Positions 783 to 62,482 of a stretch of DNA of 64,000 nucleotides are shown one piece after another. The DNA comes from Labia minor (lineage: Eukaryota > Arthropoda > Insecta > Dermaptera > Spongiphoridae). Position numbers and translations under genes: made by a program. The notes beneath the pieces were generated by a model. It was not told the origin of the DNA and made no database searches. It worked only from the letters and a program-made list of their open reading frames with translations. How positions within the stretch are numbered: position 1 is the stretch's first letter; every line of letters begins with the position of its first letter. Location: NCBI GenBank assembly GCA_963082975.1, contig OY720345.1, forward strand, positions 633,001-697,000, read 5' to 3'.

Positions 783-1170
783 GATCGATGACCCTGGGAG
801 ACGAGAGTAGATTTAGAGTATTTGTGAGATGAGTATTGTTCGCGGCATTTATAGGCCAAGGGAAGATGAGGTCACAGGGGATTGCATGATCTCCAGATAT
901 AGTTGAGGTTATAAAATCGTGAAGGTTGGGATGAGAAGGGGATGTGGCTGGAATGGGAGAGGCTAGAAAGATCGGCGAAAAATATATTTATTTGGGAGAA
1001 ACCGATTGGGGGAAACATCCGGTGGAAGACTAAGGACGCGGTGGGTGGACAATGAAGGAAGGGACAGGGTGGGATTTGGTTATAGCTCAGGAGAGGAATG
1101 TGAATGCTGCGTCTAAGAACGTTCGAGTACTGTAGAGACACAGAGTTAGATAAATATATAATAACATATA
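783..1170 (+). mobile_element. LINE fragment, 3' end (5'-truncated)
   Basis: Similar to the other LINE tails here (4654-5195, 17943-18640, 24780-25270, 26175-26595, 43002-43432). It starts near the conserved phrase meaning T-L-G-D-E-S-R-F-R-V-F and ends near the conserved 3' phrase GAGTACTGTAGAGACACAGA followed by a GATA-like tail. The coding frame is broken by several small indels. This is the C-terminal part of a non-LTR reverse transcriptase polyprotein. I infer an RTE-like or related clade but cannot settle it. Confidence 0.7.
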
Positions 1171-42403: not shown

Positions 42404-45032
42404 TTAAGAAGCTCGTCTTTTAATTGAATATTTCCCTCTTGCTAAATGTCCTATATAAATTTTCACTTTAACACTATCACTAAGTTTTTTCACCCATAGC
42501 TGTAAAATAAAACAGATAATATTAATACAATTATAATAGTCATAATTAAGTTTGTATATTTATTAAATTACTAACCACATCATTACTAACTGCAGAAATG
42601 ATGGCAGGATATTTTATGTCTTTTCCTTCGACGAAGATTGGTTGTCCCCTATGAAACCTAAAATATTAATATATATTAAGACCAATATTTTAAATAGTTG
42701 ATGAACAATGGAATAAAGGAAATTTAATTTACCATCGTTTTTCGTGTAATAATTTTCCATCTTCTACTCTGGTTTCAGATAATGATTCGGTATTCATATT
42801 TGATGTTGAATTGAATGAAGAACTAACCATAACTGTAAATATATGGATATATATATAGATATATATTTATAAACTATATTGAGAGTAAATTAGTATAATA
42901 AAGTTGGTACAACTTAATAGCCACATATATATATATATATATATATATTATTTATAATAAACTAAGTGACATATTAATATATTCATAAGATATTTTTATC
43001 TATCTATCTATCTCTGTGGCTCTACTCGAAAGTTCTTGGCCGCAGCAACCACACTTCTCCAAGTATCCCTATTCTGAGCCAGAACCCTCCAATTCCTTAC
43101 CTCTCCCATCTCTCTCACGTCCCTTCCTACATTATCCATCCACCGCGTCCTTGGTCCTCCAAGCGGACGTTTCCCATTCGGAATCCCTATAAAATATATT
43201 TTTCGCCATTCTATCTTCTACCATTCTAGCCACGTGTCCTGCCAATCGTAGCCTTCTCGATTTTATAATTCTAACTATATCTGGAGATGCATAGAGGTCA
43301 TGCAATTCCTCGTTATGCAGTCTCCGCCATTCCCTGGTGACCTCATCTTTCTTTGGCCTATAAATGCTTCGCATAATTCTATTCTCAAATACTCTAAATC
43401 TAATCTTGTCTTCTAAGGTCATAGGAATAGTTTATTGATAAAAACAAAATCTAAAATTAATTATTTTATTTACCTGGTTTTCTTACAGGACTTATCATTT
43501 TTGCTCTGTTTATATGTTTTAAATCACTTTCTACTTCTTTTTCATCAAGTAAATAATTTAATTGAGTCTGAGGTGGTTTTCTTCTTTTTTCAGGAGCGGG
43601 TGCTGGTTCATTAGGCCTTCTTCGAAGCTTTCTTGTCATTACTGGTTTAACTTCCATTGAATCCCCTGTCAATTCCATTGTGTACCTTTCAGATTCAATT
43701 ATTCTTCTCTTTTCTTCCAAATCTGCTATTAAATTTTCCTTTAATTCAATTTTTTTTTCATCGAATTCTTTAGATGCTGCATTTTTTTCTAATTGGAAAT
43801 CTCGTTCTATCCATTCAAGTAAAAATTCTTTAGTAACACCATTTATACGTATCCTAGAATTTATATAAAAGAAATTATCAAAATTAAATTTAAATTTAAT
43901 TATAAAAAATGAATGATAATATATTATATTTAAAAATAGGTCGCCCTTTTAATAAATTGGGATTTAAAAACATTTGGTTGACAATAGACCCCTTAAATGA
44001 CCACATATTGACTAAAAATTTTACAAAGATAATCTATAGCTTAACATACAATATACTACCGGCTCAAGGTACTGGGTATTTGGGCAGTTGAAGAAGCGCT
44101 TTTAACCTCAGAAATATCAAATTTTACGATGTCATATTCCACATGTCAATATCAGTGTTGCCAATTCTCAATACATAAATAGTAGCCCTCGTATTAACCT
44201 TTAAATGACCAGTTAAACACGTTCTCGCCGGCATGTACCACCGGTGGTTCATGCCGCCACATCAAATAAATAGACAAATTATGTAGCCGGCGGGATTAAT
44301 TCTATAGTCACCTATTAATGGATATCAAACAAAAACTATAAGTCAGCTGAAAGCAGCTGTGTTGCCAATTCATTTAAGAGACGAGAAATTAAAAAGTCAC
44401 GGACTTATTGACCTGCACTCGTACATTACATTTGGTTGAAAGTCTGTATGCGAAAGGTTTTCAATCAGTATATTAAAACATTAATATCTTTTGTTTTCTT
44501 ATTTAAAATATATTTTAATTTAATCAGTAAATTAATTATATATTTTCTTGTATGTAATGTTATAGTAGAGTATATTTCTTAATAATTTCATATAATATAT
44601 AATAATAAAAAATACCTTTCTCTAAAGGAAAAATTCAATTTTTTTAGTTTTTTATTATATTCAGGATGCGTGCCTTGTTTTAATTGCTCTAATTGTCTTC
44701 TTAAACTTGCTTGTCTGGTCTGGTACATTCTAAAAATTAAAAATTAAATGATTAAAATTATATAAAAATATAATTAAATTCAAATATTTATTTACTGTTC
44801 TTTAAGTTCAGTATATTCTTCATTCTTTCCCATCTCACTCTCGCTTGCTTCTTCTGTATCTAAAATAAAAATAAAGATTTATTAAAATAAGATTTAAAAA
44901 AATTATAGGTGTTATTGATTTAAAATAAATACCTTCATCACTTTCTTCTAGATCCTCATAATATCTATCATCGAAAAGATATTCATCATTTTCATCATCA
45001 AAATCATATTCATCATTTAAATTAAACGACAT
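42404..45032 (-). CDS. SUDS3: Sin3 histone deacetylase corepressor subunit SDS3
   Basis: A subunit of the Sin3-HDAC corepressor that bridges Sin3 and deacetylase in the nucleus. The acidic N-terminus is followed by Y-Q-T-R-Q-A-S-L-R-R-Q-L-E-Q-L-K-Q-G and T-H-P-E-Y, the Sds3/BRMS1 signature, then a coiled-coil stretch, a basic proline-rich linker (P-E-K-R-R-K-P-P-Q-T-Q-L-N-Y-L-L) and a C-terminal part beginning F-H-R-G-Q-P-I-F-V-E-G. Seven exons: 45032-44933, 44859-44796, 44729-44616, 43853-43474, 42832-42733, 42657-42576, 42499-42404. Phases agree throughout, giving 311 residues. SUDS3 is preferred over BRMS1 because of the length and C-terminal extension. The intron between exons 4 and 5 contains a LINE fragment; the 762-bp intron between exons 3 and 4 contains other repeat pieces. 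No break is seen in the coding sequence. Confidence 0.9.
43002..43432 (-). mobile_element. LINE 3' fragment inside a SUDS3 intron
   Basis: The minus strand, the same orientation as SUDS3, has a 96-codon frame with R-F-R-V-F-E-N-R-I-M-R-S-I-Y and R-L-R-L-A-G-H-V-A-R-M. It ends in the family 3' phrase (GAGTAGAGCCACAGAGATAG) and a GATA tail. It is one of the less decayed tails in the window, 5'-truncated. Confidence 0.8.
44050..44475. repeat. repeat pieces in the third SUDS3 intron
   Basis: A GC-richer block at 44215-44300 (GCCGGCATGTACCACCGGTG) looks like a small DNA element with internal symmetry. At 44420-44470 a piece of the Helitron subterminal region appears in reverse (inverse of CAGACTTTCAACCAAATG). 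Confidence 0.4.
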
Positions 45033-46122
45033 AATGCTTGATTTTACTTATTTACTTATTATGCATCAAAAATAATTCATAAAAATAGTAAAAGAAATAT
45101 TAAATAAATTAAAAAATAAAACATATGAGATATGTAAGCTTATTTATAATCATATTTATTAAAAAACTAAATTAGAACATTAAGTTATGATGGATACTAG
45201 TCAAATTCAGTGCAGTGTGATTGAGTGTGATGCAGTGTTTTGGAAAATAACAAATGACAAATTAAGGAGGATCGTTCGTTCCTGAATGAACGGGTCACCT
45301 AATTGAACGTGTAATAACAGTTCAATTGGCGGTCTTCGTTCATTTTTAGTTTATTTCTGTGCATCGTTCAATCAGTTCATAGTTAGTTTATGTGTATGTA
45401 GTGGTTTTTAAAAGTTATTTATTTTTAAATAAAAATATTTACTATAATCTTAAATCTTTCTTTCATTATTTAACTCTCTGAAATAAAAGTTTGAAAATAA
45501 GATATAAATGGTCTGTGATGTAAACAAAACATTGAACGGGTCTTCAAAAATGAACGAATATTCCATCAGTATGCCAAAGGATAGGTATGGTGAACTTATG
45601 AGTTTAAAGAAGTGTTTATAATTTGCCAACTGTCCAAAATAAAATTAAAGAGAACTTTTAAACTTTTTTATTTAAATAAATTTTAATTAAATACTTATTA
45701 AAAATTTTTAAACAATAATTTGTATCTTTTTTTTAAAATTCAAAAAATAATTAATTTCCAAAAATATTTATTTATATTTAATTATTTAATTGATTCAAAT
45801 ATTTATTTTTAACATAGAATACAAAAAAAAAATAATAATACTAATTAAAATAATATATTTTTTTAAACAACAAATTAAATCATATTGTTGTAATAAATAA
45901 AATGTTAAAAACTAATTGAATTATTGATTTTTTTCATTTTTAATTTCATATTTTTACTTATTAATATTTCTTTAACAATGAAATTGCTCAAAAATAGTTT
46001 TTATAAATAATTTGTTAAATTTAAAATAATTTTAAATTTAAATTTTTAAATAAATTTTAAACACTTCTTTCAACTTTCATAAAAATTAATACTTGTCTTG
46101 TGAATTTTTTTAATTAATAGAA
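45033..46122. promoter_or_regulatory. divergent SUDS3 / LYRM9 upstream region
   Basis: About 1.1 kb separates two divergent start codons. The part at 45190-45620 is GC-richer and has repeated TGAACG/CGTTCA phrases, partly palindromic (CGTTCCTGAATGAACG). It could be a small transposon or a regulatory block; I cannot tell which. The rest is A/T-rich. Confidence 0.35.
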
Positions 46123-46723
46123 ATGGTGTTTTTATCATTATCACTTTTGAGTATTAGTAAAAATGGTAAAAATATAAATAATTCTAAACAATTATTCAAA
46201 TATCTTTTACGTCAATGTGAAAAATTACCCAAAGAGGCACAATCATATTATAAACATACTATTAAAGTGGTAAATTATCAATTTCATCTGTCAATTAAAG
46301 TAATTTTTATATTTATGTTTTTGTATTTTTTTAAAGAGTTACAAACAACATCTGGATGAAACGGATACAGATCGTATAAATCAAATAATTAATAGATCTT
46401 TGGAAGATGCGGAATGGATTTTAAGAAAAGTCAGTTCAAAAATTTGTCCCAACTTTAATTAGATTAGAAAGTAATATTTTCGAAAAATACAAGTTTATTA
46501 TTAATTTTTGTTTAATTAATTTATATTTAAAAATATACTTTACAATAGATTATTAAACAAAAATATATTTTGTTATAGGAATATAATTTTTAATAAATTA
46601 AAAAATGCCTTCTTCATAATCTTAGATTATATTTTGAAAAACTATTAACTTAAATGTCAGGAATATTGAAAATGTCTAATTATCTAATGTATTAATATTT
46701 TCCAGTATTCAAAGAAGAACTAA
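46123..46723 (+). CDS. LYRM9: LYR motif-containing protein 9
   Basis: Small LYR/complex-1 family protein; family members are generally mitochondrial assembly factors, and the precise role of LYRM9 is poorly known. Exons 46123-46269, 46337-46429 and 46706-46723 give 85 residues, with GT-AG introns in phase 0. Residues 23-32 (Q-L-F-K-Y-L-L-R-Q-C) hold the LYR-like motif. Q-S-Y-Y-K-H-T-I, then S-Y-K-Q-H-L-D-E, then R-I-N-Q-I-I-x-R-S-L-E-D-A-E-W-I follow, and the protein ends K-Y-S-K-K-N, matching the K-Y-K-K-Q-N end of vertebrate LYRM9 as I recall it. The final coding exon is 18 bases. If the second intron is retained, reading continues to a stop at 46462 instead. The first ~20 residues are less conserved, so a later start is possible. 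The stop is one base before the TRMT44 ATG. Confidence 0.85.
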
Positions 46724-46724
46724 A

Positions 46725-48669
46725 ATGAATATTGAGTTAGAAGAGAGATTTTCTGGAGAACCAGATGCATTTTGGAACGGAATATCAATTTGGCATAATA
46801 ATCCACATCTTCTTAATAAACGAATTGCAGGACAAAATATAGTCTTTTCAGGAAAAGTTTGTGAGAAAATTGCTTATGAATTATTATTGCAAGAAATTCA
46901 AACATATATTTCTAAAGATGAAAATATAAATTTAACAAAAGAGAAGCTCTCAATTTTTCTTAAAAATATCTTTTTACCATTTGATACAAATAACATTTTT
47001 AATCCATCTAATCAGGATAATTATTTTACTCTAAGAGAATTAATATATAAAAAAAATAATATTCCATCAGAACTAGAATTATGTTATCTAGGTAAAAATT
47101 TTATAACACTAAAATTAATTGAGAATTAAATGTAATTATGATGTTATAATTTATTGTTTTAGATAAAAAATCTACTTTAATTACTATTATAAATTTACAA
47201 AGTAAATTAACTTACACGTTAAAATTGAATAATGGTTATATAATTCTTACCTCATTTGATTTACAATCTGAAATTGCCAATTGGTTAAAAAATAAATTTT
47301 TTCCAAAAGTAATAAAATGGATGCTAAATAAAATTTGTCAAACAGATAATATTAAATCACATGGATTATTAAAACAAGATAGATATGTAACATTATATCA
47401 AGATTTAAAAGAGAAATATGGAAAGAAAATGGTTGAGGTTGGTTATAAATTTATTAATATTTTCTTCTTTTTTTAACATTATTTAGTTTCTAATCATTTA
47501 GATATGGCCAGAAAATACTGATCCCTATAAATTTGTATATGAAGACATAGCAATAGCCTGTTATTTGCTTTCATTATGGGAAACTTATGAACCAAATAAA
47601 AAACAAAAATTTATAGATTTAGGATGTGGAAATGGGCTTCTCGTGTTCATTTTAACAAATGAAGGTCACATTGGTTCAGGAATTGATGTGAGAAAAAGAA
47701 AAATTTGGGATATGTATCCAAAAAATATAATTCTTAAGGCAAGTTATTTTTTTATTTAAATAATAAATAGTAATTTCTTTTTATCATTTTCTTGTTATAT
47801 ATTTTAATACTTTTTAGGAATATGTAATTACTCCTTCCAATAGTTGTTTATTTCCGGATGTAGATTGGATAATTGGTAATCACTCTGATGAATTATCTCC
47901 TTGGATACCTATTATTGCAGCAAGAAGTTCTTTTCAGACTAAATATTTTCTATTGCCATGTTGTGCATTTGAATTTGATGGATCCAAATTTCAAAGAAAA
48001 AATTCAAATTTATCTCAATATCGAGCATTTCTTGAATATTTAAAGAATATTTCGTTAATTTGTGGATTTGAAACATCAATTGACAGATTAAAAATACCTT
48101 CTACCAAGCGGATTTGTTTAATAGGTTTGAAAAGAAATTACCAAATTAGTGATTACAAAGAAATAAATAAAAATATAGAAAATTTATTGAGTGACAAAAG
48201 TTCTGATAAAACCGAACAATTTAATTCAAATGATTTATGGGTAAATAATTTCAAAACTAGAGAAAAAGAAGAAAAAGTAAAAAATTGTACCAAAATTAAT
48301 GTTATAATTATATATGAAATTGTTAATTTAGTAATAAGAGAATTACTAAAAAAGAAAAATTATATTATCTTAGATGATGGAAAAAAATGGAATTGTGGAA
48401 CAAAAATTTCTTTAAAGGAAATTGCAAAACTAATACCTAAAACGAAATTAGCTGAATTGAAAAAAGAATTCGGAGGTTTAAAAACTCTTTTAAAAAATAA
48501 TCATCAGATCTTTCAAGTAATTAATGGAGATATAACAATTAAAATACCAGTCATTTCAGAGAAATTATATAATCCCAATTGGAAAACGAAAGATTGTTGG
48601 TTTTATCTTAATCATCCTGATGGATGTCCTCTTGAAAATGAAAAATGCAAATTTAATCATAAAAAATAG
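46725..48669 (+). CDS. TRMT44: probable tRNA (uracil-O(2)-)-methyltransferase
   Basis: Predicted to 2'-O-methylate uridine 44 in tRNA-Ser in the cytoplasm (yeast Trm44 activity), using S-adenosylmethionine. Exons 46725-47091, 47163-47437, 47502-47738 and 47818-48669 give 576 residues with consistent phases. W-P-E-N-T-D-P-Y-K-F-V-Y-E-D-I-A-I-A precedes the methyl donor-binding motif D-L-G-C-G-N-G-L-L in exon 3. Exon 4 has L-L-P-C-C-A-F-E-F-D-G and ends in a CCCH zinc finger (C-W-F-Y-L-N-H-P-D-G-C-P with C-K-F-N-H), as in animal TRMT44. Intron 3 starts GCAAGT, a GC-AG intron; the others are GT-AG. The ATG lies one base after the LYRM9 stop, in the same exon. Convergent with the THAP gene on the right. 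Confidence 0.9.
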
Positions 48670-49639
48670 TTGAACAATGATAAAAAATAATATAAAATTA
48701 TAATATGAAAATGATTTATTTTATACAGAATCATTATACAATACTAATTATATACAGCCTTCGGCCAGCCAAAGTTAAAACTTTTGAAAATAAAAAAAAT
48801 GTTAAGTTAACTTACACCATTTATTATTTATTTTAAATTTAAATTCAATAAATTATTTATTGCTTATATTATATTATTAAGAAATTTTGTTAAAAATTGA
48901 AGTATAAGGCAAAATTTATAGTTATTAAATAAATAGGATTATATAAATAAATCATGTATATAAAATAATAATTTTTATTTTTTTTATATCAAAAATTATT
49001 AAATAAATAATACATAATTTCGACTAGAATAAAAACTATAGGTAGTAAAATTATTAGGGCTTCAATAAAACTTTGGTATTTAGAAAATAAAAAATTGAAC
49101 ACAGAGTATCACATAATAAAATATTTATATATAATTATATATATATATATAAAATTTAATAAAATTAATACTACACCACTTTTGGAAAGATTTAATAATT
49201 AATGAAGATTAAAAATTAAAATATAAATAACATAAGTTCGAAATCTAATTCTTAAAATTTATCTACCATATTCTTATTTAGATTTTGTTTAATTTTAAGA
49301 ATTTTTAAATTTTTTATTTTTATATAACATATATAATTGAGTTACACAATAAATGGAGTACAATAAATTGATCTTAATCTAATTATATTACTTTTTTAGA
49401 ATGTATTTTTCTTCTAAAAGAGTAGAAAATCAATTATTTCGAAATAAAATATATAAATATATAAGAAAAAAAATTTAAAAAGGAAATAAACAAAAATCTC
49501 TTTGGTATAAAAGAATATTTACTTTCTTAAAAATAAAATATAAAATTGTTATAAAATGGCACTTGTATATCTTGGTCCTCAAATAAATAATACTTACATA
49601 ATGATTAGAATATAACAAGTTAGGTATGATATTACTAAC
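48670..49639. other. 3' region of TRMT44 and of the THAP gene
   Basis: AT-rich. On the minus strand a short run at about 48748-48785 (reading L-T-L-A-G-R-R-L-Y-I-I-S) follows an AG in the phase left open by the THAP exons, so it is a weak candidate terminal exon. The 61-codon minus frame at 49475-49660 merely reads through the THAP intron. Confidence 0.3.
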
Positions 49640-49972
49640 CAAATATCGTTGGAACAGCATATTTAGTCAATCTATTGTTACTTGAATTAGCAAATTGATC
49701 AGCAGTAAAATGCAATGAACAAATGCGCCGAGATGTCAACTGTCTCAAAGGCATTGAATTAAGATCTTCTCTTCCAACATTTTCCAACCATTGTTTAAGT
49801 CTAAGAAAAAAATATTCTTAATAAATATACATTATAATTAAATTAAATGAATTATATTTAAAAATGTATGCCTTTCTGGATGTCTGACTGGAAATCGAAA
49901 AAAAGATAAGTTGGGATTTTTAACTCTTGTAGATCCACAACCGGTTATAACGCAACCATGGTGGCCCACCAT
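49640..49972 (-). CDS. THAP-domain protein, 5' exons (partial model)
   Basis: A THAP-type zinc finger is a DNA-binding domain derived from P-element transposase, found in nuclear regulators. Exons 49972-49872 and 49800-49640 encode a complete domain: M-V-G-H-H-G-C-V-I-T-G-C (the first two zinc cysteines), F-F-R-F-P-V, then W-L-E-N-V-G-R-E-D-L, then I-C-S-L-H-F (C-x2-H) and the closing A-V-P-T-I-F. The first intron would start GCATAC, a GC-AG intron; no GT nearby keeps both frame and domain. The second exon ends in phase 1 at a GTTAGT donor, so more exons should follow leftwards, but I cannot place them securely. Only ~87 residues are certain. The neighbour RNPS1 starts ~950 bp away, divergently. 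Confidence 0.8.
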
Positions 49973-50921
49973 AATAAATTTCTATTAAATATATTACTTA
50001 TATTTTAGTTAAATTATTATTTTTATAATTAAGGACGTATTTGATTAGCGAGGCCTTAAGAAAGTGACTTTAATTTAATATTTAAATTATATTATAAAAC
50101 GTTTTTATTAAATTAAAAAAATACTCAGATTTATGGCGCCAAAATATAGAAATGTCAATTGAAACATAAACAAATCGAAAATGGCGTCAATTAAATTCAA
50201 GCAAAGTCAAAGACTTGGTAATAAAGATATAGCAATAAACTAAAGGAGGGTAGTAATGATTTTAACCATTTACAACTGTAAGATTTGGTCTGTATTTGTA
50301 AAAATAGCTTTAATTTACTGAAATTATGATAGTTATTTTTAATATTATTTTCAAATATATTGTAATTATAATTTAATAACTTTTCATTTTAATTTATTAT
50401 TTTTTCTTGTTTAATAATTAAATAAAAAAAATAATTAAAGACATTAATCAAATTAATATAAATATAAATAATTAATAAATTACCAATATTTTAAAAACAA
50501 TCAACATAAATTGCTTGGTTATAAAAAAAAGTAAAACTAGAATACTCTCACTGTCAATATTATTTTTAATAAATAAAATATCCTAATAATTTAATTAATT
50601 AAGTATTTTAAAAAAGTAAAAGTAAATAGAAAAAATAAATTTGGTAAATATTTTAAATTGGTTAAATTATATTTAATATTTTTATTCAATTTTTACAGTT
50701 TATTTATACCATTTTGAAATTCTGTATATAGATGTTTACCATCTGAAGATATCTTTGATATTAAAACCAAGCGTTAGCAAGATTTTTGTTTCCAAATACA
50801 TAATAATTTTTTTTTATTGCATTTTATTGATATTAAACATTTTTAATATTAGTATAGATATTTTATTACCTTTGGAAATATATTTAATAAAATAACAATA
50901 ACATTTCCTTAATCAAACTTA
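49973..50921. promoter_or_regulatory. divergent THAP gene / RNPS1 upstream region
   Basis: About 950 bp between two divergent start codons. It includes a modestly GC-richer patch at 50100-50240 (GGCGCCAAAATATAG, AATGGCGTCAATT). No motif is named with confidence. Confidence 0.4.
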
Positions 50922-60117: not shown

Positions 60118-60813
60118 TTTATTTAATTTTATTCTAAATATTCTCAAATAATACCTAAATTTTATTATTAAAATTAAATATACAAATTATATATAAAGAA
60201 TTATAATTAAACTCATATTTCCGGGCAGATGGACAAATAGACAGGCATGAAAATTTTTTAAGTCCCTTCTGGATTCTAGAGGTAATGAAATATGATGATT
60301 TGCAAAGAATTTCAAATTCTGAACAATGTGCAGACAAAAACCTTTTTATATTTAAATAGATTTAAATTTTTATTTTAATTGATGATAGAAAAAAAGAAGA
60401 TAAGATAATAAAATTAAATAGAAAGGCATTTAAATTATCAAATTAAAAATCACTTTTGCTTCTTTTTAATATTTTTGATTGACATTTTCTTTAAAAAAAC
60501 CAAAAAAAAAAAAAAAAAAAAAAAATTAAATATTTTCAGATATTAAAAAACATAACTTACCACTTGAAAATTTACAAATTTTGATTTTCATTTATTGAAT
60601 CAATATCCATTATGATTCTTTGAATTATTAATTTCTAATTACAAATTAAATAGAGTTAATAGGCAATCTATTTTTTATGCTCATTAATCTAAACATTATA
60701 AATAAATGATGATACATCTATTCAAACGTTGAAAATTTTCGTATATAATTATCATTTAGTAAATTAATAAACACAGTTTTTAACCAACCTATTATCATTC
60801 AAGTCAAAATAAA
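59913..60813. other. odorant receptor upstream region with repeats
   Basis: (GA)n at 59981-60000, (TA)n at 60077-60111, a reverse piece of family C at about 60200-60360, and poly-A at 60500-60525. The odorant receptor promoter presumably lies at 60560-60813; no motif is claimed. Confidence 0.5.
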
Positions 60814-62482
60814 ATGACAACGGCAAAAGAAGTCCCTAGGCAGAAAAATATATTTTCATTAAATCTTATCTTTCTTACAATTTATGGTTTATGGAATCCT
60901 TTTCAGAGAAAATTGCCAAAAAGAATTTATCATATTTATTCACTTTTGATTTTACTGATTTCAATTGAAAGTTTTCTTTTAATGTACATTGATGTGATTG
61001 TCAATAGACATGATATAAATATTATTGCCTCTAGTTTGCCAGCAACCATAACAGGCACCACCAATATTATTAAAATAATTTATTTTTTATTTAAACATGA
61101 AACATTAGTACGCGTGATTAAGGATTTAAATAAAGGGCTCTATCCAGGAGAGACTGAACCTTTCTTAAGGGAGGAAGAAATTAGAGCCAAAAGAAGATCC
61201 TTTAATTTTACTGTTTTAATGATAGGCGCAGCAATCTTGTCGGCTTTGTCGAGTTATGTAAAAACTACAATTGATGTAGTTGGTATGGACTTGACTGATT
61301 TAACAATTAATGATACTCAGACGATTATGAATAACATGAGAGTTCGACAATGGTTTCCACAATCATGGTATTACAAATATCCTGTATTCGTCTTGTACAG
61401 CCCGCTAGTAGGAATACTATCCTTTAGTCCACCAACTGATATGGGTTTCGATTCATTGATGGCTGCTCTATATATTCATACCACATGTCAATTTGAATTA
61501 ATTCAAAAACGAGTATTTGATTTTCAAGACAAGCACCAAATTAAAGATTCTGAACGTTATTCTTTATTAAGAAAATCTCTAGTTTTTCATCAAAATTCTA
61601 TTAGGTAAAATGTTAACATTCTAAATTCTAAATTATTTCAGATAAAATAATAGATTTTAATCTTTTGTTTAGATTTGTTCAAGTTTTACAAGATCTGATT
61701 GGCCCGTTTCTTTTTGTTCAATTTCTTTGCAGTACAATAATTTTAGGAATTGGAATATTTCAATTTGCTATTGTAAGTATTTTAATAAATACTTTAATTC
61801 TAGAAATAATTAATAAAGATTTTTCTTGGAGTTTCATATACCCCCTTGATCTCAACTAATCTCAGCTATCTTTTTATCATATGGATTAAACAATTCTGGT
61901 GAATAATATACACTACCTCGTTGAAAGCAATTTGCGACTTGGAATCGTAAAGAAGGTTCATTGTCTTTGCTATGAATGATCTGCTCTTACAACATATTTC
62001 AAATAACTTTAATAAAGTCTTCATAGAATCCTTTATTAATCATTTTGTTTTATAATTGACATCTTTCCAAACATTGTTTTTCAAGGAAAAAACTTGAGGC
62101 AAGGATGCTGAAATTGGCTGAGGTGGGATCAAAATGAAAGAGAATAAAGATTTATAGAAAAAAAAAAAAATATACATATATACTTAAAATTCTTATAATC
62201 AATACACATATTTAAATTTATTTACAATAAAAAAATTAACAAAATTAAATACCGTATTGTGAGAGGAAAATTACAATAGATGTATATTTATAAAAAATAA
62301 TTCATTAAAATTTTAGTTAAAATGAACAAATTGTTTAATTTATTATTTTTAATAGACTTCTCATTTTTTATCTTTTTTAGTTGGCTGATACTTCACAAAG
62401 ATTAGTATTATTGCCATATATGATAAATATGCTTTTTCAATTATGGTTTCATTCTTATTTTGGAGAACAATTATCGACCCAA
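60814..62482 (+). CDS. insect odorant receptor (7tm_6), partial
   Basis: Ligand-binding odorant receptors are inverted seven-pass membrane proteins that form cation channels with Orco in olfactory neuron dendrites. Exons 60814-61604, 61673-61772 and 62381-62482 keep phase and give ~331 residues. Exon 1 starts M-T-T-A-K-E-V-P-R-Q and has hydrophobic segments near residues 45-60, 70-95, 133-150 and 190-205, with the extracellular-loop-like W-F-P-Q-S-W-Y-Y-K-Y-P-V-F. Exon 2 has the V-Q-V-L-Q-D-L-I-G-P-F-L-F-V-Q-F region and exon 3 ends F-H-S-Y-F-G-E-Q-L-S-T-Q, before the usual C-terminal exons with the last transmembrane segment. These exons are not in the window. The following intron is loaded with transposons. 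No stop or shift is seen in the visible exons. The exact receptor cannot be named. Confidence 0.88.
61773..62380. other. odorant receptor intron 2
   Basis: A GC-richer patch at 61840-62140 reads partly open on the minus strand and may be an old pseudogene or transposon piece. I do not recognise it. Confidence 0.35.

Follow-up and report, generated by a model that had tools for sequence, protein, structure and literature searches.

Adjoining LYRM9 and TRMT44 reading frames share an exon in Labia minor and probably a dicistronic mRNA

In a 64,000-nucleotide window of the Labia minor genome (the whole stretch analysed here, G000:C2:633001-697000 of the 604-Mb assembly that was searched), the stop codon of a LYRM9 gene and the start codon of a TRMT44 gene are separated by a single A (46724) and lie together inside one exon that runs to 47091, the TRMT44 frame being +1 relative to the LYRM9 frame (Table 1). 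An earlier sequence-only reading of the window had placed the stop and the start at these positions, and re-reading of the sequence found its coordinates exact. Judging from this layout, both genes are probably carried on one mRNA, a shared message being the simplest reading of the arrangement. We propose, with moderate confidence, that the two genes make up a single dicistronic transcription unit in which translation would restart at the TRMT44 AUG after the LYRM9 stop.

Table 1. Features of the LYRM9-TRMT44 locus and its neighbours, and the AltMIEF1-type LYR gene found elsewhere in the genome (positions are those of the window unless a genome interval is given)
Feature	Position	Strand	Details
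Sds3-like gene	43466-45047	-	PF08598 8.1e-7 on 43469-43948
LYRM9 coding exon 1	46123-46269	+	ATG 46123-46125, context ATAGAAATGG
LYRM9 coding exon 2	46337-46429	+	donor GAAAA/GTCAGT at 46429/46430, phase 0
LYRM9 intron 2	46430-46705	+	276 nt
CTAAT branch-point-like motif	46684-46688	+	second A 18 nt upstream of last base of the 46706 acceptor
LYRM9 last coding stretch, Y-S-K-K-N-stop	46706-46723	+	TAT TCA AAG AAG AAC TAA; TAA 46721-46723
TRMT44 coding exon 1	46725-47091	+	ATG 46725-46727, context ACTAAAATGA; donor TCTAG/GTAAAA
TRMT44 coding exon 2	47163-47437	+	
TRMT44 coding exon 3	47502-47738	+	methyltransferase motif DLGCGNGLLV
TRMT44 intron 3, GC-AG	47739-47817	+	AAG/GCAAGT
TRMT44 coding exon 4	47818-48669	+	CCCH zinc-finger-like C-terminus; stop TAG 48667-48669
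THAP-domain gene converging on TRMT44	49635-49981	-	PF05485 5.1e-11
Odorant-receptor (7tm_6) gene	60784-61605		
L020 AltMIEF1-type LYR protein, 67 aa	G000:C1:55895800-55900200, 470-634 and 1024-1062		release-factor ATG at 1078, 15-nt gap, same exon

Both gene calls of the sequence-only reading hold, each protein scoring above its Pfam cut-off. The spliced LYRM9 protein has 85 aa with the C-terminal end ...AEWILRKYSKKN, and matched PF05347 (Complex1_LYR) at 1.4e-9 and 38.1 bits (cut-off 24.8); this cut-off was passed even though the tripeptide of the LYR family reads L-F-K, not L-Y-R, at the expected place (SKQLFKYLLRQC). The name LYRM9, as distinct from another LYR protein, is provisional and leans on a YKH block and a C-terminal K-Y-x-K-x-N, both features of human LYRM9. 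No LYR protein was matched in a PDB sequence search with LYRM9. The genome search returned four LYRM9 matches, of which the two strong ones are at this locus (the other two had E values of 1.38 and 2.65), and 4/4 TRMT44 matches also fell here; no second copy of either gene was found in the genome, and both appear to be single-copy.

TRMT44 is the tRNA uridine-44 2'-O-methylase, acting on U44 of tRNA-Ser, and its family features a C-terminal CCCH zinc finger. The predicted protein (576 aa) matched PF07757 over residues 192-293 (4.7e-35, 120.7 bits versus a cut-off of 27), and a C-x9-C-x6-C-x3-H arrangement was found by eye in its C-terminus (CWFYLNHPDGCPLENEKCKFNH). Its N-terminal block (AFWNGISIWHNNPHLLNKR) is similar to that of human TRMT44, and the ATG at 46725 is for this reason taken as the natural start. 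A PDB search with TRMT44 gave just a weak methyltransferase match, and the exon-4 protein had no confirmed relative in scans of viral_contigs and genome_contigs. CG14130, a candidate for the fly TRMT44, was set aside after a passage of PMC5998591 did not confirm it.

The weak point of the LYRM9 model is its 18-base last exon, which the sequence-only reading had described as supplying the C-terminus expected of the family. Human LYRM9 ends in ...KYKKQN. In our model the join between exon 2 and the last exon reads ...WILRK-YSKKN-stop, the acceptor is ...TATTTTCCAG/TATTC at 46705/46706, and CTAAT, a branch-point-like motif, lies upstream of it at a spacing typical of branch points. AG acceptors between 46430 and 49500 were screened for a following tail of five residues with Y first, at least 3/5 of them identical to the human LYRM9 tail, and then a stop. 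Only one of the 133 acceptors, that at 46706, opened such a tail. When 20,000 sequences were drawn from a first-order Markov model of 400 nt from the region, any such acceptor occurred at a frequency of 0.00195. The description of this exon as the family C-terminus is thereby supported, with a probability of chance origin of about 0.002 relative to the human tail. If instead intron 2 were retained, LYRM9 would run to a stop at 46462 (...KVSSKICPNFN) and be polyadenylated after, for example, the AATAAA at 46592, and the two genes would share nothing. The donor GTCAGT is short of the best consensus, and AATAAA/ATTAAA hexamers occur in intron 2 at 46552, 46592 and 46597, both in keeping with retention. 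However, the hexamers mean little, since 22 of them (non-overlapping count) were found over 46000-49000, and the spliced tail KYSKKN fits the family C-terminus, whereas the retained tail is unlike it; we therefore give retention a very slight probability.

The sequence-only reading further held that any transcript using the 46706 acceptor carries both frames. This does not hold in general: a different first exon would bring only the last 15 coding bases and the stop of LYRM9, so that a transcript of this sort need not carry LYRM9. A TRMT44-only mRNA could be made in this way by alternative splicing, if a promoter upstream of LYRM9 produced a non-coding first exon joined straight to 46706. No AUG occurs in the 19 bases from the acceptor to the TRMT44 ATG, which would suit such a message; we nevertheless consider it decidedly improbable. 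A LYRM9-TRMT44 fusion protein made via another donor was rejected, the frames differing by +1 and 0/5 of the GT/GC sites in 46340-46462 restoring the TRMT44 frame from 46706; the frames might conceivably be bridged by a +1 slip at AAC UAA A. A retrocopy of a spliced LYRM9-TRMT44 mRNA would have proved the dicistronic transcript, and none was seen in genome searches with the DNA and with both proteins. Elsewhere in the genome, the DNA search gave five weak matches (74-83% identity) to query bases 356-496, around and inside LYRM9 intron 2.

It had also been concluded that either a bicistronic mRNA or a separate TRMT44 promoter inside LYRM9 intron 2 must exist. We keep this as a choice of two, while "must exist" is too strong for a conclusion drawn from sequence alone. 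With its own promoter in intron 2, TRMT44 would be translated in the ordinary way, and the mRNAs of the two genes would overlap only in the shared exon. This explanation is the main rival of the shared mRNA, though unlikely in our judgement. Intron 2 has about four times the length of the remaining introns of LYRM9 and TRMT44 (four introns of 64-79 nt), and an initiator-like site matching the arthropod initiator TCAGTT lies at 46431. Furthermore, the strong LYRM9 AUG and the five AUGs internal to its ORF would make translation of TRMT44 from a shared mRNA inefficient. Against an intron-2 promoter, the TCAGTT site coincides with the splice donor of intron 2, which it overlaps, and the number of such sites is near chance (two found in 931 nt versus 1.3 expected from base composition). 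Moreover, four AUGs are present in intron 2 (46605, 46654, 46672 and 46687), so an AUG-free unspliced leader would need a transcription start within about 46690-46720. Finally, a shared exon also accompanies published dicistronic genes, namely the AltMIEF1-release factor and TFB5-zf-HIT pairs described below.

On the dicistronic reading that we favour, transcription would start upstream of 46123, and splicing of LYRM9 introns 1-2 and TRMT44 introns 1-3 would produce an mRNA in which an 85-codon LYRM9 cistron comes first and the TRMT44 cistron follows after a single spacer base. Some of the ribosomes stopping at the LYRM9 UAA would stay bound and initiate again at the adjoining TRMT44 AUG, a minority skipping the LYRM9 AUG could reach TRMT44 via five very short internal ORFs, and TRMT44 output would thereby be low and coupled to that of LYRM9. 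Simple leaky scanning is unattractive, because the context of the LYRM9 AUG is strong (G at -3, G at +4) and five AUGs follow it, and it was discarded as the main route to TRMT44. The internal AUGs open five ORFs of 1-12 codons; four of these finish upstream of the TRMT44 AUG, and the last one finishes on a TGA that overlaps it (ATGA). Synonymous sequences would contain 4.4 internal AUGs on average, so the five present give no indication that AUGs were removed from LYRM9. The internal AUGs alone are not decisive, since TFB5, a published first cistron, has five AUGs in the exon examined. The more likely route on a shared mRNA is thus restart after termination, perhaps supplemented by reinitiation downstream of the short internal ORFs.

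Several points speak against this favoured dicistronic reading. It is unusual for ribosomes to restart across a 1-nt spacer when the first ORF has 85 codons, and restart is described as poor in plant cells after ORFs of more than 34 codons (PMC2276209). In viral termination upstream ribosome-binding sites (TURBS) a UGGGA motif is looked for some 40-90 nt ahead of the stop, and the final 120 nt of the LYRM9 ORF contain none; MOCS2A and MOCS2B, moreover, are 827 nt apart in this genome. In a stricter form of the proposal the bicistronic mRNA would be obligate and conserved in insects. All TRMT44 would then come from termination-reinitiation coupled across UAAAAUG, with no ribosome-binding motif of the viral type, and translation of the mitochondrial LYR factor would set the output of the tRNA-Ser methylase; we regard this version as improbable.

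As controls, four published insect uORF/main-ORF pairs, of the CG30100, CG31917, CG10238 and CG33671/CG33672 types, were sought in the same genome. Stop and start were found in one exon at 2/4 of them, one pair (MOCS2) was adjacent at a distance, and one (BolA) was unusable. The case for a shared LYRM9-TRMT44 mRNA is strengthened by these two published pairs having the same stop/start-in-one-exon layout here. LYRM9-TRMT44 has the shortest gap between cistrons (1 nt, versus 15 nt for the AltMIEF1-type/release factor pair and 31 nt for TFB5/zf-HIT). MOCS2A (ThiS) and MOCS2B (MoaE) were found in order with 827 nt between them, and therefore not every dicistronic pair keeps the shared-exon layout. 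In the BolA-mevalonate kinase control, the best BolA gene of the nine places listed had no recognisable kinase beside it in the ORF list, and this control was dropped; the gene examined is perhaps a different BolA paralogue. TFB5 (PF06331 5.0e-16) is followed in the same exon, after a gap of 31 nt, by the ORF of a zf-HIT protein (2.4e-9); we take this protein, and likewise the main ORF of CG31917, to be ZNHIT1. Two of the five TFB5 AUGs are in the TFB5 frame, this count being for the sole exon examined (the first coding exon was not located).

At the CG30100-type locus (L020), the first cistron encodes an LYR protein whose best PDB sequence match was the MIEF1 upstream ORF protein 5ool_v (8.9e-10; LYRM4 gave 2.3e-4), and the second a 146-aa RF-1-family release factor (PF00472 3.8e-23), presumably MTRFR-like. 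The first cistron has no internal AUG versus 0.85 expected (P 0.15, not significant alone), and its first AUG has C at -3 and no purine there (GTTCAAATGA). These features fit leaky scanning of the kind that was tested in algae (PMC11291117). The AltMIEF1 homologue precedes an RF-1 release factor here, not MIEF1, so that one microprotein is paired differently in human and in this insect. A segment of the release-factor exon occurs twice in close succession (2230-2287 and 2324-2381 of the locus), with 7/58 bases differing and a GTATAT donor after each copy; the repeated segment is possibly a duplicated, alternative exon. A 2015 review, PMC4381221, lists an LYR domain "fused" to an RF-1 release factor in five insects, and this "LYRM4-RF1 fusion" is probably the AltMIEF1-release-factor pair seen here. 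From the same listing we infer that the 70-aa uORF of fly CG30100 is this LYR protein; a pairing of LYR with a release factor in insects would, by our inference, follow from PMC2276209 and PMC4381221 combined.

The genome search with PF05347 pointed to eight places, six of them above the cut-off; the LYRM9 locus is missing from these six because its exons were scored separately. A second gene in a shared exon was found at two LYR loci, LYRM9-TRMT44 and the AltMIEF1 type. L011 (G000:C1:42117835-42120963) has an SDHAF3-like LYR gene with a kinesin-like gene 490 nt downstream on the same strand (both named by eye) and four AATAAA/ATTAAA hexamers in the gap; it is an ordinary tandem, in contrast to LYRM9-TRMT44. 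At L007, L009, L010 and L012 no recognisable second cistron was seen by eye in ORF lists covering about 1.5 kb of flank with introns ignored, so that these are not firm negatives, and the LYR match at L014 has a stop inside. In the window itself, the Sds3-like gene may diverge from LYRM9, and the region of about 1 kb between them may be a two-way promoter region common to both.

The pairing of an LYR protein with a tRNA methylase on one transcript had been presented as undescribed to the reader's knowledge. As a claim of novelty this is too broad, as human MIEF1 and green-algal cases of LYR proteins encoded together with a second protein are in print. The human MIEF1 uORF contains PF05347 (PMC4383229), MIURF-MIEF1 is among the 14 human dual-coding transcripts retrieved (PMC13303939), and the conserved bicistronic genes found in green algae are said to include some for LYR-motif proteins (PMC11291117). 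In the open-licence literature, LYRM9 with "bicistronic" gave nothing, LYRM9 with TRMT44 only mouse implantation work (by title), LYRM9 with "insect" only one review, and LYR with "dicistronic" or "polycistronic" only rat hippocampus work (by listing); PMC4568590 has no mention of LYR. Two-gene messages, LYR-family ones included, are thus already known, and LYRM9-TRMT44 is a new pair, an exact pairing that may be new within the open-licence literature.

In flies, 44 conserved uORFs were described with a mean length of 76 +/- 44 aa, those kept beyond Brachycera measuring 92 +/- 29 aa (PMC2276209). They include the 70-aa uORF of CG30100 (release factor), kept as far as Ixodes, and the TFB5 uORF of CG31917, which is conserved to Bombyx. 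Also listed are CG10238 (MOCS2) and CG33671/CG33672 (BolA and mevalonate kinase), and the genes with conserved uORFs are reported to be enriched for mitochondrial-import and methyltransferase genes, 2/48 each (PMC2276209). LYRM9-TRMT44 fits this description, with an ORF of 85 aa for a mitochondrial-type protein upstream of a methyltransferase. The mitochondrial function of LYRM9 was listed as unknown in 2015 (PMC4381221), and a fixed TRMT44 partner would hint at it. If the shared mRNA is real, LYRM9-TRMT44 would become one of the few dicistronic genes of eukaryotes, with a second LYR protein as first cistron within one genome. Having a single spacer base, a strong first AUG and further AUGs inside the first ORF, it would serve well as a natural test case of reinitiation versus internal promoters in insects. 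Were obligate coupling true, this pair and the AltMIEF1-release factor pair would together represent a recurrent linkage of LYR proteins and translation factors on common mRNAs.

Among the known systems, human MIEF1 mRNA is similar in having a short Complex1_LYR (PF05347) first cistron followed by an unrelated longer protein (PMC4383229), but its LYR protein is AltMIEF1, not LYRM9, and its second protein is other than TRMT44. The insect CG30100-type pair resembles LYRM9-TRMT44 in the order of an LYR protein and a translation protein and in having stop and start in one exon; however, its AUG-free first cistron and weak first AUG make leaky scanning look possible, whereas LYRM9 has a strong AUG and five internal ones. 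The TFB5 pair (CG31917) also shows a short first cistron, a common exon and five AUGs in the TFB5 exon examined, and differs in that its first protein is a TFIIH subunit and not an LYR protein. In green-algal bicistronic genes the context of ORF 1 tends to be weak and leaky scanning is backed by reporters (PMC11291117), unlike the strong context of LYRM9. Termination-reinitiation in caliciviruses and influenza B takes place at stop and start codons within a few bases of each other, as here, but the viral restart sites carry a UGGGA motif (PMC3542737), and LYRM9-TRMT44 has no UGGGA upstream.
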